This document shows positions 13,082-39,654 of a stretch of DNA of 39,654 nt, piece after piece. Below the pieces are notes generated by a model. The model was not told the DNA's origin. It made no database searches and was given only the letters and a program-made list of their open reading frames with translations. The stretch is from an uncultured Bacilli bacterium (lineage in GTDB: Bacteria; Bacillota_I; Bacilli_A; RF39; UBA660): NCBI GenBank assembly GCA_947628535.1, contig CANRAF010000009.1, positions 1-39,654 on the forward strand, read 5' to 3'. How positions within the stretch are numbered: the first letter of the stretch is position 1; each line of letters opens with the position of its first letter. Position numbers and translations under genes: made by a program.

Positions 13082-15904
13082 TTATTTTACAACTGGATGA
13101 GAAGTTATATCATTTGGCATTGAGTTATATACAGGTATCTTAAAGTTAAATGCTTGGTTTAATAATCCAGCGTTTTTATAAGCTCTATAAGATGATAATC
13201 CTTCACTTGCAGGTGCTAAAATGTTTGTCATATATTGATGTGAGTATCTATTGTAGTAAGTTGTATTTGGATCTACATCAAATTTTTGATAGAAAAGAGT
13301 ATCTTGACCTTTATGAATATAACCATTAGCTACAAATGAAGCTCCATTTTCAATAGCTTTTTTATAGGTATTCCATGGAGTATTGTCATAGTCATCAACG
13401 TAACCTGCAGCAGTTGCAAGACCTCTTATAACAGGATTATCTCCATAGGCTCCTATATTATAAAAATTATATACATTCATAAGTGAATGACCATCAAGTG
13501 TTATTTTATACCATATATTATTACTGCAACCACTACTTTTCTTTGTGTGAGAGCTTAGAATTGTAAATGTTTCTTTATTATCAGTAGTTGTAGTGATACC
13601 ATATCCTGTACTAGGGCCAGATCTTACATTTACCTTTCCATCACTTACAACTGTTCCTTTGCTATATTTATTCGTTGTTTTTAAATAGGTTTTGCAAACA
13701 TATCCATATTTATTATTTATTTTAAGTTTTCTCCAGCCGGCACTGCATCCAGTTCCTGTATATACTTTAGAATCTGCGAGTATAAATTCTTCACCATTTG
13801 AAGTAGCATAAGTTTTGTTGTAACCAGTACCAGCACCTGCTCTTATATTTACTGTTCCAGTTGATGATATAGTTCCAACTGATGTTGCTTTATTTGTATA
13901 AACAGAACAGATATAACCAGTGCTATGATTCCATCTAGTAGTTACGTTTCCAGATACTGCCGCATATGATTTATCTGTCATACCTTCTTGTTTTGCTCTA
14001 GCTGCTAAAACACCAGGGCTTACTTTTTGGGCTTTTCCAGCATTTACAAAATATCCTGAATAAGTGTCAGTATCTAACCAAGTACCATTAAAAATATTTT
14101 TAACAATTTTAGTATTGTTAATTGATGAATTATAATTTAATGTTTCAAATGCAAAGATATTTTTTTCATTTAAATAGTTTCTTGGGTCAATCATAAATGC
14201 TACATAAGCATCATTTGCAACTCTCCATCCACCAGCTTCAGCAATAGCTGTTGATTTTAAATAATTTGAATTTGATATTTGAGTATAATTTTTGCCAGTT
14301 TCAGAGTTTACTGCATTTAAGAAACTATCTCCTGTTTTTTCTGGAGTAAATATCCAGTTTGAATGTTTTGAATGTAAGTATGATAAGTAAGGACAATAAC
14401 TTGCTGGGAACCCAGCTTTAGTTAGTGTATTACAATAACTAGTATTTGTTTTAGTTATTTCACTATATTTATCGACATAAGTTTTACAAACATAACCAGT
14501 TTTGTTTGTAAAATATTTTACTTTATACCAACCATCTTTACAAAGAGAATCTGTTTTAGAACTACTTGATATATATTCAAGTTCAGTACCTAGATATAAA
14601 GTATTTACAATAGATGCTGATGATGAAGCTGAGCTTCTTGCGTATGCATAATCTTCATTAATTCTATAAGTCCATTTATTAATTGTATTATAGTAGCCGT
14701 ATTTTGTTGTATGTTTAGTTATAGATTTTGAAGAGGTACTGCTTGATGTAGTATTATTTGTCTTTCCAAACTGAGTGTAAGAACTACAAATATATTTTAC
14801 TCCAGTATTTAAGTTTATTTTATACCATCCTGCAGAACAACCATCTCCCTTATATGTAGTAGTACTGCTAAGAATTATTTTTTGATCTTTATTAAAAGTT
14901 TTATATTTTGCATTATTAGTTCCGGCACCATTTCTTACATTAGTACCATTAGTTGTTATAGTTGTCGTATTATTTGATGACGATACATAAGAACTACAAA
15001 CATAACCAGTTTTATTATTAACATTTATTTTGTAGTATCCTGAAGTACATCCAGGTCCTGATACTTTAGAAGTTGACTCTAAAACAACAGGTGAAAAGTA
15101 GGAAAGTAGTTTTATAATTGATGATTTGTTAGACGCTTCAGATCTAATATTTAATCCGGTTAAATTATTTACAATATAATTAGTAGTTGCTCTTTTTAAA
15201 AGTGAGCTACAAACATATCTGGTATAACCTTTGTAATATATTTTATAATATCCGGCACTACATCCCACACCTTTATATTTAGTAGTTTCCGATAAAGTAA
15301 CTGCTTGACCGTATTTTAAAAAAGCAATTTTTGAAGATGTGTTTGAAGAACTACTTCTAATATTTGCTCCTGTCAGATTGGTTACTATTGCATTGGCTCC
15401 AGAAATATAAGTATCAGTGTAATTTTTACAAATGTATTTAGTAGAACCATTATAATTTACTTTATACCAACCTTTAGAACAACCCTTACCAGTTACTGTT
15501 TTTGTTGTTGCTAAAGTAAGTGTTTTATTATTGGCAACTTTTGTATAAATAGAATAATTTGTTCCAGCACCATTTCGCATATTTATGCTTGAAGTGGATT
15601 TTATTTTTACTGTTACATTAAATGTAGAGGCATAACTTTTACAAATATATCTTGTTGAACCATTATAATCTATTTTGTACCATCCAGCACTACATCCAGT
15701 AGTTCCTTTTAAAACGGAACTATTTAAAATATAAACAGAATCGTTATATTTTAATGATCCCATAGCAGAATAATTAGTTCCAGGTCCCGCTCTTAAAGTT
15801 ACTCCTGTATTATTAGTAACTCTTCCATATTCTAAAGCGTTTGCATTTTCTATAAAAATAAAGGAAAAACCTAAGAACAAAATAAGCATAAATATTTTTT
15901 TCAA
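13082..15904 (-). CDS. Autolysin: SH3b repeats plus split N-acetylglucosaminidase domain
   Basis: Secreted wall hydrolase of about 940 residues. Numbering below counts from the ATG at 15922; by analogy with its paralogue at 38273 the start is more likely the TTG at 15904, which has a GTGGTGG site upstream. A signal peptide (ending NANA) is followed by six SH3b units (about 31-100, 102-171, 177-247, 248-316, 317-386, 420-485), each with an N-[IVM]R-x-G/S-x-G/S strand and a C-S-x-G-W/Y-Y-K turn. A glucosaminidase module follows: IDPRNYLNEKNIF, then SPGVLAARAKQEG with the likely catalytic Glu near 646. Two more SH3b units (about 677-812) interrupt it before it resumes at NVYNFYNIGAYGDNP and YSHQYMTNI. 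Role: cleavage of peptidoglycan during growth or division. Confidence 0.88.
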   Translation of the reverse strand: MKKIFMLILFLGFSFIFIENANALEYGRVTNNTGVTLRAGPGTNYSAMGSLKYNDSVYILNSSVLKGTTGCSAGWYKIDYNGSTRYICKSYASTFNVTVKIKSTSSINMRNGAGTNYSIYTKVANNKTLTLATTKTVTGKGCSKGWYKVNYNGSTKYICKNYTDTYISGANAIVTNLTGANIRSSSSNTSSKIAFLKYGQAVTLSETTKYKGVGCSAGYYKIYYKGYTRYVCSSLLKRATTNYIVNNLTGLNIRSEASNKSSIIKLLSYFSPVVLESTSKVSGPGCTSGYYKINVNNKTGYVCSSYVSSSNNTTTITTNGTNVRNGAGTNNAKYKTFNKDQKIILSSTTTYKGDGCSAGWYKINLNTGVKYICSSYTQFGKTNNTTSSSTSSKSITKHTTKYGYYNTINKWTYRINEDYAYARSSASSSASIVNTLYLGTELEYISSSSKTDSLCKDGWYKVKYFTNKTGYVCKTYVDKYSEITKTNTSYCNTLTKAGFPASYCPYLSYLHSKHSNWIFTPEKTGDSFLNAVNSETGKNYTQISNSNYLKSTAIAEAGGWRVANDAYVAFMIDPRNYLNEKNIFAFETLNYNSSINNTKIVKNIFNGTWLDTDTYSGYFVNAGKAQKVSPGVLAARAKQEGMTDKSYAAVSGNVTTRWNHSTGYICSVYTNKATSVGTISSTGTVNIRAGAGTGYNKTYATSNGEEFILADSKVYTGTGCSAGWRKLKINNKYGYVCKTYLKTTNKYSKGTVVSDGKVNVRSGPSTGYGITTTTDNKETFTILSSHTKKSSGCSNNIWYKITLDGHSLMNVYNFYNIGAYGDNPVIRGLATAAGYVDDYDNTPWNTYKKAIENGASFVANGYIHKGQDTLFYQKFDVDPNTTYYNRYSHQYMTNILAPASEGLSSYRAYKNAGLLNQAFNFKIPVYNSMPNDITSHPVVK
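13487..13928 (-). repeat. Two-unit SH3b insert inside the glucosaminidase domain
   Basis: On the minus strand the insert is bounded by TCAT at both ends (13928-13925 and 13490-13487), 438 bases apart, exactly 146 codons or two SH3b lengths. It starts with the final strand of an SH3b (STGYICSVY) and ends with the start of another (WYKITLDGH). Joining its ends restores LDGH-STGYIC, a normal SH3b, while removing it restores WNH-SLMNVYNFYNIG, a normal glucosaminidase seam. The insert is therefore circularly permuted. Confidence 0.65.
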
Positions 15905-36940: not shown

Positions 36941-38026
36941 ATGCTTAAAAATAAAAGACTAATCCTTTTTATTGTTATGACTTTACTAATACTTATTGGT
37001 CTTTTAATGATTTTTTCGTCATCTTATATTTGGGCTGATTATAAATTCGGTGATAGTTTAAAATATGTTAAACAACAGTTGATTTTTGTTATTATTGGAT
37101 TTTTAATTTTATATATTATTATGAAATTAAATAGTGATTTTTTTTATAAATATTCTAAGTATTTTTTAATTATCTCTTTTATTTTGCTTGGGCTTGTTTT
37201 AATACCTGGTGTAGGAGTAGTTAGAAATGGTTCGAGAAGCTGGTTTGGAATTGGATCATTTGGTATTCAACCTAGTGAAGCTATGAAGATTGCAATTATT
37301 ATTTTTACTGCGAAATATTTGAGTCTTAAGAGGAATGTTTATAAAAAATTTAGTACGATTGTACCTGTTATTATAATAATGGGACTTGCTTTTTTGCTTA
37401 TTATGCTTCAGCCGGATTTTGGGACAGGAGTAATTTTGGTGATGTCTGTTGTAGCAGTTTTATTTACTGCAGGAGTTAATATGAAATATTTTTATATGTT
37501 TGGACTTATTGGTGTAGTGGGAGCAGTTGTTTTAATCTTAATAGCTCCTTATAGATTAGATAGAATTACTTCATTTTTAAATCCATGGAGTGACCCTCTT
37601 GGGACAGGATTTCAAATTATTCAAAGCCTTTATGCTATAGGACCAGGAGGACTCTTGGGATTTGGTTTTTTAGGTTCAAGACAAAAACATTTTTATCTTC
37701 CAGAACCTCAAACAGATTTTATTTTCTCAATTATTTGTGAGGAATTTGGTATTTTTGGGGCTCTTTTAGTGATTGTTTTATTTGCAATTTTAATTATTAT
37801 GATTATAAAACTTGCTTTAGATGAAGAAAATATGTTTAAAAAATATGTTATATTTGGACTTGGGTTTCAAATAATATTTCAAGCAATACTTAATTTAAGT
37901 GTAGTTATTGGCCTTATACCAGTTACTGGAGTTACTCTTCCTTTTATTTCTTATGGGGGCTCTTCACTTCTTGTTACAATGGTTTCTATGGGAATTATTT
38001 TAAATCTTTCTAAAAGAAACGATTGA
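36941..38026 (+). CDS. ftsW: SEDS-family peptidoglycan polymerase FtsW/SpoVE
   Basis: Lipid II polymerase that works with a class B PBP. 361 residues and about ten membrane helices. Family motifs: FSSSYIWA at the start, RSWFGIGSFGIQPSEAMKI, LQPDFGTG with the catalytic Asp region, PEPQTDFIF in the large extracellular loop and PFISYGGSSLL near the end. AAGGTGATCTT precedes the ATG. Its partner is most likely the PBP encoded at 33869. RodA is the alternative, but dcw-type neighbours favour FtsW/SpoVE. Confidence 0.93.
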   Translation: MLKNKRLILFIVMTLLILIGLLMIFSSSYIWADYKFGDSLKYVKQQLIFVIIGFLILYIIMKLNSDFFYKYSKYFLIISFILLGLVLIPGVGVVRNGSRSWFGIGSFGIQPSEAMKIAIIIFTAKYLSLKRNVYKKFSTIVPVIIIMGLAFLLIMLQPDFGTGVILVMSVVAVLFTAGVNMKYFYMFGLIGVVGAVVLILIAPYRLDRITSFLNPWSDPLGTGFQIIQSLYAIGPGGLLGFGFLGSRQKHFYLPEPQTDFIFSIICEEFGIFGALLVIVLFAILIIMIIKLALDEENMFKKYVIFGLGFQIIFQAILNLSVVIGLIPVTGVTLPFISYGGSSLLVTMVSMGIILNLSKRND

Positions 38027-38060
38027 TATTAATAGTAAATAATAGTTTTTGTTTTAATAA

Positions 38061-38093
38061 AAAATATTTAATTATTTAGTTAAATATTTTTTT
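38061..38093 (+). terminator. Terminator after ftsW
   Basis: AAAATATTTAA (38061-38071) pairs with TTAAATATTTT (38080-38090), then TTT. Confidence 0.75.
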
Positions 38094-38129: not shown

Positions 38130-38157
38130 TTGAAAATTGTTATATGGTTAATATAAT
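38130..38157 (+). promoter_or_regulatory. Possible upstream promoter of the SH3b gene
   Basis: TTGAAA (38130-38135), a 16-base spacer and TATAAT (38152-38157). If used it would read through the G tract and give a leader of about 110 bases. Confidence 0.4.
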
Positions 38158-38206: not shown

Positions 38207-38235
38207 TTGACAATACCCGGGGGGGGGGTGATAAT
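38207..38235 (+). promoter_or_regulatory. Probable phase-variable promoter with G10 spacer
   Basis: TTGACA (38207-38212), a spacer of exactly 17 bases, then GATAAT (38230-38235) preceded by T. Ten of the 17 spacer bases are one uninterrupted G run. Gain or loss of a G would change the spacing from the optimum, the mechanism of several known phase-variable promoters. At the present length the spacing is optimal, so the assembled state would be ON. A TAATATAT/ATATATTA inverted repeat follows at 38232-38252. Confidence 0.75.
38219..38228 (+). repeat. Poly-G tract (G10)
   Basis: Ten consecutive G, directly after CCC, in a strongly AT-rich intergenic region; by far the longest G run in the window. 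A homopolymer of this length is prone to slipped-strand mispairing. Confidence 0.95.
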
Positions 38236-38272
38236 ATATATGTAATATATTATATAAGTAGGAGTGGTAAAA

Positions 38273-39654
38273 TTGAAAAAAGTATTTATAATGATATTAT
38301 TCATAAGTTTTTCGTTTATGTTCATAGGGAGTGTAAATGCACTTGAATATGGAAGAGTAACTTATGACAGTGGGGTTAATGTAAGGAAAGGAGCAGGAAC
38401 AAACTATTCAAAACTAGGAACACTAAAATATAATGACGCAATTTATATATTAAATAAAACCCCAATAAAAAGTGGTAATGGATGCTCAAGTGGATGGCAC
38501 AAAATAAATTATAACGGAACATATGGGTATATATGCAGTATATATGCGTCAACATCAGGAGTAACAATAAATACAAAAACATCAGTAAATATAAGAAATG
38601 GCGCAGGAACAAATTACGGAATATATAAAAAGGCAGTAAAAAATAAACAAATGACACTTGTATCTTCAACAAAATATAAGGGTTCAGGGTGCTCAAATGG
38701 ATGGTATAAATTAAATTATAATACATCAACAAGTAAATATATATGTAGTTCTTATACAACAAATTATATGTCAGGAGTAAATGCAATAATAACAAATGCA
38801 ACAGGGGCAAATATAAGAAGTAAAGCAACAACAAAGTCAACAAAAATAGCAAGTGTAAGATATGGACAAGGAGTAACATTAGCAACAAAGACAAAATATA
38901 AAGGTACAGGATGCGCAGCAGGTTACTATAAAATAAATTATAAAGGGAATATAAGATATGTATGTAGTAATTTAGTAAAGATAGCAAAGAGCAATTATGT
39001 AGTAAATAATTTAACAGGAGTAAACATAAGAACAAAAGCATCATCAACATCAAGTAAGGCAATAGGACTATCATATGTAAAGCCAGTAGTATTAGAGTCA
39101 ACAGCAAAATATAAGGGAACAGGATGTAGTAGCGGCTGGTATAAATTAAATTTAAATGGAAAGACAAGATATGTATGTAGTAAATATGTAACATCAACAA
39201 GTAATGTAACATTTACAACATCAAGAGTAAATGTAAGAAACGGACTTGGAACAAATTATAAGATATATAAGAATTTAGCAAGTAATAGGGCAGTAGTATT
39301 ACTTTCAACAACAAAATATAGTGGAGCAGGATGTAGTGCAGGCTGGTATAAAATAAGCTTAGATGGAGGAACAAGATATATATGTAGTTCATATACAGAA
39401 TTAGGGAAAGTAAGTAAGAGTACTACACCAGAAGTAAAACCAGAAAAATCCCAAGCAACAATAAGCTTTAATGTAGATGATGGAAAATATGCAAATTATA
39501 ATCAAATATTAAAAGATAAGTTGAAATTTGAAACAAAAGATTCATATGGAGATGGAAGTTTAAAATATGAAGGTGGAAAATTAAGTGGATTATTATTAAA
39601 GAATAATAAGATAACACTAAATACAGAAGATCAAACAAAATATAAGAACACACC
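38273..39654 (+). CDS. SH3b-repeat surface protein (3' end outside window)
   Basis: A TTG start at 38273 follows GGAGTGG; the frame stays open to the window end (460 codons). A signal peptide (KKVFIMILFISFSFMFIGS, then VNALEYGRV) is closely related to that of the autolysin at 13082-15904. Five SH3b units follow, each with an N-[IV]R strand and a G-C-x-x-G-W/Y turn: NVRKGAGTNYS, NIRNGAGTNYG, NIRSKATTKS, NIRTKASSTS, NVRNGLGTNYK. They align unit by unit with the first five of the autolysin. After about residue 380 the sequence (ATISFNVDDGKYANYNQIL) leaves the paralogy and no glucosaminidase is reached. Codons prefer third-position A, unlike the core genes but like the gene at the left edge. Expression is probably phase-variable. 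Confidence 0.85.
   Translation, partial: MKKVFIMILFISFSFMFIGSVNALEYGRVTYDSGVNVRKGAGTNYSKLGTLKYNDAIYILNKTPIKSGNGCSSGWHKINYNGTYGYICSIYASTSGVTINTKTSVNIRNGAGTNYGIYKKAVKNKQMTLVSSTKYKGSGCSNGWYKLNYNTSTSKYICSSYTTNYMSGVNAIITNATGANIRSKATTKSTKIASVRYGQGVTLATKTKYKGTGCAAGYYKINYKGNIRYVCSNLVKIAKSNYVVNNLTGVNIRTKASSTSSKAIGLSYVKPVVLESTAKYKGTGCSSGWYKLNLNGKTRYVCSKYVTSTSNVTFTTSRVNVRNGLGTNYKIYKNLASNRAVVLLSTTKYSGAGCSAGWYKISLDGGTRYICSSYTELGKVSKSTTPEVKPEKSQATISFNVDDGKYANYNQILKDKLKFETKDSYGDGSLKYEGGKLSGLLLKNNKITLNTEDQTKYKNT

Follow-up and report, generated by a model that had tools for sequence, protein, structure and literature searches.

Upstream of a gene for an SH3b-repeat surface protein in an uncultured Bacilli bacterium lies what is very probably a phase-variable sigma-70-type promoter, in which slippage would change the length of the spacer and thereby set transcription of the gene. 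The locus lies near the end of a stretch of 39,654 nucleotides (the window), corresponding to contig C9 in a genome of 933 kb and 20 contigs. The elements of the locus are as follows.

38207..38212, forward strand: -35 element TTGACA, exact consensus, also present in the sister copy on contig C11 and in the genome's other G-tract promoters
38219..38228, forward strand: G10 tract, the proposed slippage switch, the only run of eight or more G in the window and one of 23 in the genome
38230..38235, forward strand: -10 element GATAAT, separated by 17 nt from the -35 element; GATAATATATATGT recurs unchanged in the C11 sister copy
38260..38264, forward strand: ribosome-binding site AGGAG, with a TTG start 8 nt downstream
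38273..39654, forward strand: 5' part of the SH3b surface-protein gene, with a signal peptide and five SH3_3 domains (Pfam E=6e-35), truncated by the contig end

A first-pass annotation had noted that TTGACA and GATAAT are exactly 17 bases apart and that ten of these bases form a single G run, and re-reading the coordinates from the sequence confirmed both points. The spacer (38213-38229, 17 nt) consists of ATACCC, G10 and T, where assembled tract lengths, G10 included, are possibly off by one base. The TTGACA-17-GATAAT site scored 11/12 in a promoter scan, and the three G8+ matches found in the window compare with a mean of 0.05 in shuffled sequences, none of 100 shuffles being as high. As in promoters of the porA/fetA type, a homopolymer long enough to slip is located between the -35 and -10 elements and the product is a surface or secreted protein. 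The product was correctly labelled an SH3b protein and described as a secreted repeat protein: the TTG at 38273 opens MKKVFIMILFISFSFMFIGSVNALEYG..., a typical signal peptide, and five matches to SH3_3 (PF08239) follow. This TTG is preferred over the GTG at 38264 as the start codon because of the AGGAG 8 nt upstream and the signal peptide.

In the proposed mechanism, strand slippage in G10 would gain or lose single bases, shifting the distance between the -35 and -10 elements to 16, 17, 18 nt and so on. Altered spacing would change transcription of the SH3b-repeat protein stepwise, and cells of one population would come to carry differing amounts of it. The locus would belong to a set of poly-G switches that control surface genes across the genome, acting either transcriptionally through the spacer or translationally just after the start codon. 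Slippage at this locus, the response of transcription and the role of the protein are inferences. The slippage-variable spacer suggested in the first pass holds as the best explanation, with 12 such promoters in this genome and hundreds in the family, but a strict ON/OFF switch is probably too strong a description, because porA, the relative studied in most detail, shows graded control (PMC3639595). Control at this locus is probably graded as well, an option that had already been raised. The surroundings of the promoter and a related gene in the window comprise the following.

36941-38026: ftsW, upstream of the SH3b promoter
38059..38092, forward strand: AT-rich stem-loop with a T-rich 3' arm, RNA fold of -8.7 kcal/mol, z=-2.4
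38130..38157, forward strand: possible second promoter TTGAAA-16-TATAAT, scoring 11/12, which would bypass the switch but is doubtful
14675..15904, reverse strand: related SH3b gene within a 966-codon frame, 58% identity, with an extended -10 element TGTTATAAT and no G tract

A second promoter had been proposed at 38130, and the gene might be transcribed mainly from there or by read-through from ftsW, leaving the G-tract promoter of little weight. The site is present, with its high score and its position downstream of a possible terminator: the stem-loop at 38059-38092 possibly ends the ftsW transcript and insulates the SH3b gene. Its role as a real bypass is doubtful; an 11/12 match is not rare because the DNA is so AT-rich, with nine such matches in the whole window and, for the 180-nt intergenic stretch, 1.5% of Markov copies scoring as high. 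The C11 sister copy also argues against this reading, which we consider unlikely, in that it conserves the hexamers and leader of the G-tract promoter while little upstream similarity is obvious in the alignment. The C11 gene is 84-86% identical to that on C9, and its promoter contains TTGACA and a spacer of 18 nt that lacks a long G run, followed by an identical GATAATATATATGT, ribosome-binding site and start. Conservation of hexamers and leader around a different spacer supports the -35/-10 assignment at C9.

The SH3b gene extends beyond the window. The last 77 nt of C9 (39578-39654) are identical to the end of C11 (L270) and to the start of contig C14 (L271), which carries the SH3b frame on for 1815 codons. 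Judged from these overlaps, the full protein probably has ~2,250 residues; a Pfam search of the 1815-residue C14 continuation gave no match. Two different SH3b 5' halves, on C9 and C11, thus join one C14 3' part, which represents either a collapsed repeat or two giant genes of nearly identical sequence. Counterparts of the SH3b gene at 14675-15904 have no tract in all four genus relatives. The switchable copy looks like a later duplicate because both the third SH3b gene and the genus counterparts are without a tract.

G tracts are found throughout the genome in two main settings. There are 23 runs of G8 or longer in the 933 kb of low G+C content, and the G is always on the coding strand where an adjacent gene can be assigned. 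Twelve of the 23 are located between TTGACA and a -10-like box, with spacers of about 16-19 nt, and the corresponding targets are SH3b, prepilin-like (N_methyl), leucine-rich-repeat and Listeria-Bacteroides-repeat proteins together with several unassigned secreted proteins. Seven runs are found just 3' of start codons, in a common leader (...AAACTAAAGGAGTGATTCCAAATGAAGAAA...), and belong to large proteins, several with Laminin-G-like domains. The other four lie within other reading frames, three of which encode sugar-transfer ATP-grasp proteins. These ATPgrasp_ST genes carry in-frame tracts of G8-G10 (L046:1751-3340, L046:5056-6615 and L045:2490-3788), hinting at phase-variable surface glycans. 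In addition, four target proteins (L036, L043, L049 and L051) end in VPKTG plus ~13 residues, a tail unusually short for a sortase-type signal.

The genes following the tracts are strongly enriched for surface or secreted products. Using a simple hydropathy threshold, rather than a signal-peptide predictor, to call secreted or membrane proteins, we found a hydrophobic N-terminal segment in the first gene after the tract in 10/11 cases in this genome and 30/35 in the family (40/46 together), compared with 7/23 of the other window genes and 118/439 genes in other loci (27-30%; Fisher p about 1e-15). The one exception in this genome is a 147-residue zinc-ribbon-like protein with a G11 promoter (L047:2412-2912, reverse strand), whose first 50 residues include no hydrophobic segment.

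The tracts after start codons appear to act as frameshift switches of large surface-protein genes. Six complete loci, on contigs C1, C3 and C5, were computable; when translated at the assembled length and at +/-1 base, each of the six had exactly one of the three lengths open. As assembled, L037, L039, L044 and L048 are open and L040 and L047 are closed. L039 (G9) and L040 (G10) have nearly identical flanks and yield 872 and 11 codons, respectively.

Tract lengths differ between promoters with a common core, as slippage would predict. Within single genomes, conserved cores are associated with tracts of 9/10/10/10/11/11 (G316), 9/10/10/11 (G424) and 14/15/15/16 (G443) bases, with further ranges of 11-12 and 13-16 in G157 and 8-9 in G422; these comparisons are between paralogous cassettes in one genome, not of one locus through time. 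Two of the G424 copies are identical in 64 of 65 downstream bases and have G10 and G11 tracts, and the flanking sequences pair a conserved core with DNA that has diverged further upstream. A comparison of the fetched loci for near-identical contigs of a single species with differing tracts yielded only two pairs that are the same assembly twice (L074/L199, L082/L182) and one pair at 95%. In two genomes the same promoter build occurs with a G run interrupted by one base (G062:C13:10905-10935 and G062:C14:557-587; G443:C82:11722-11753 and G443:C96:9177-9208), perhaps representing switches locked by mutation.

The length differences bear on the possibility that the promoter is real but its G tract a fixed feature, such as a stiff or A-form-like segment, a G-quadruplex or the binding site of a regulator. 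Tract lengths do cluster at 9-10 G, the three promoters that share a core in this genome are all G10, and MutS is present; the last two points, like the possible bypass from 38130, also count against the switch reading directly. A fixed tract nevertheless fits poorly with lengths that differ, in many genomes, from one otherwise conserved core to the next. The position of the tract within the spacer also varies, being next to the -35 element, in the middle or next to the -10 element, which a binding site would not permit, and the same genome contains G tracts in coding starts where length alone matters. We therefore judge a fixed feature to be quite improbable and favor a slippage-variable spacer. 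Loss of mismatch repair was rejected as the cause of the tracts: this genome has MutS, as do 37 of 40 searched genomes, irrespective of whether they are rich in tracts. A mutS mutant of N. meningitidis shows a porA rate increased about 1000-fold (PMC3639595), and with MutS present the basal slippage rate in this bacterium may be modest.

Poly-G spacer promoters are common in the family and occur well outside it. In the genus, the TTGACA-Gn pattern is found in one of five genomes, this one only; two relatives carry G9-G10 in promoters whose -35 box differs (TTGCTT, TTGATT), one of the two also having tracts after start codons. About a fifth of the sampled family genomes (83/386, in 51/150 genera) carry such promoters, in front of genes for surface proteins that include pilin-like and SH3b proteins, and the pattern was present in 67/288 genomes of a second draw and 20/295 of a wider one. 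The highest count for a single genome is 85 matches (G389), some sites being counted twice. Among the matches listed for named genomes are Clostridia, Saccharibacteria, Candidatus Ancillula, Streptobacillus, Helicobacter, Treponema, Chloroflexi records and others. The exact cassette had no match in named genomes (genome_contigs, from which the window's own record is possibly excluded). A phage origin was rejected, as the strict pattern is found on only three viral contigs. We found no earlier report of such switches in this lineage in the open-licence literature.

This distribution also makes it highly unlikely that the tract is an artefact of assembly or sequencing. Homopolymer lengths are error-prone, the sequence probably comes from a metagenome assembly and several tracts lie near contig ends, but hundreds of tracts from many projects are placed precisely in the interval from TTGACA to a -10 box while the reversed pattern, used as a control, gave zero matches in any genome of the three draws.

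G-tract promoters with perfect hexamers avoid the spacing that is most frequent in ordinary promoters. In family genomes, the commonest spacing of ordinary TTGACA...TATAAT promoters is 17 nt (61/128, among the matches listed, from a few genomes), whereas G-tract promoters of the family with an exact TATAAT peak at 19 nt and only 7/155 have 17 nt (Fisher p 4e-18, with comparison sites taken from among the matches listed). Separately drawn named loci show the same contrast, 5/121 G-tract and 15/27 ordinary promoters being at 17 nt (p 1e-9). Both p-values are overstated, as the two spacing sets have at least two genomes in common, sites from the same genome are non-independent and the family comparison sites are those listed for a few genomes. 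Median spacers calculated per genome agree with the avoidance, being 17 nt in only 2 of 49. The limits of the search pattern do not explain the avoidance because they trim the long side and not 17. We tentatively suggest that, across many lineages, perfect-hexamer G-tract promoters in their assembled (majority) state sit at 16 or 18-20 nt and avoid 17, either because most populations keep these switches weak, with one or two slips needed to reach full strength, or because the optimum is shifted for poly-G, poly(dG).poly(dC) being more compact than ordinary DNA, and that these switches could form a widespread, OFF-biased bet-hedging layer in uncultured gut bacteria. If the optimum is 17 nt, the window promoter, with its 17-nt spacer and non-consensus GATAAT, would be near full strength.

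The promoters described here resemble several known phase-variable systems and differ from each in scale, target or mechanism. Poly-G tracts in Campylobacter are mostly intragenic, whereas about half of the tracts in this genome are promoter spacers. Campylobacter phasomes are similar in having many poly-G tracts per genome, many of them on surface determinants (PMC6321876); for NCTC11168, 29 poly-G/C loci are reported (PMC4965091). The pilus switch of Bifidobacterium breve is likewise found in a gut commensal and combines a G tract with surface proteins, and slippage was measured there (PMC9187656). The cases studied in B. breve are translational frameshifts, similar to the start-codon class of this genome, and not spacer switches, although promoter-spacer G tracts are mentioned in passing (PMC9187656). 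In fetA/frpB of Neisseria, a homopolymer in the -35/-10 spacer sets the level of transcription as proposed here, but the tract is poly-C on the coding strand and the system is a single locus encoding a siderophore receptor (PMC5320596).

The quantitative precedent is porA of Neisseria meningitidis, where a poly-G spacer in the promoter of a major surface protein changes expression in one-base steps (PMC3639595). Surface expression decreases in the order 11G > 10G > 9G, with 2-fold (10G) and 13-fold (9G) changes relative to 11G (PMC3639595). Our system differs from porA in lineage and target, in comprising a dozen promoters and in that variation is deduced from paralogous cassettes rather than from strains. 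A tandem-repeat review lists the spacer mechanism for other pathogens (PMC3899988). The likeness to phase-variable promoters of pathogens drawn in the first pass stands with respect to the porA/fetA type but not as a restriction to pathogens, since a commensal family carries promoters of this type. On the strength of their sequences, poly-G spacer phase variation appears to extend beyond pathogens here, and surface-protein expression in these commensals may vary from cell to cell within one strain. Compared with the systems above, the mechanism is already known, mainly from pathogens; what is new is its multi-locus scale in uncultured commensals.
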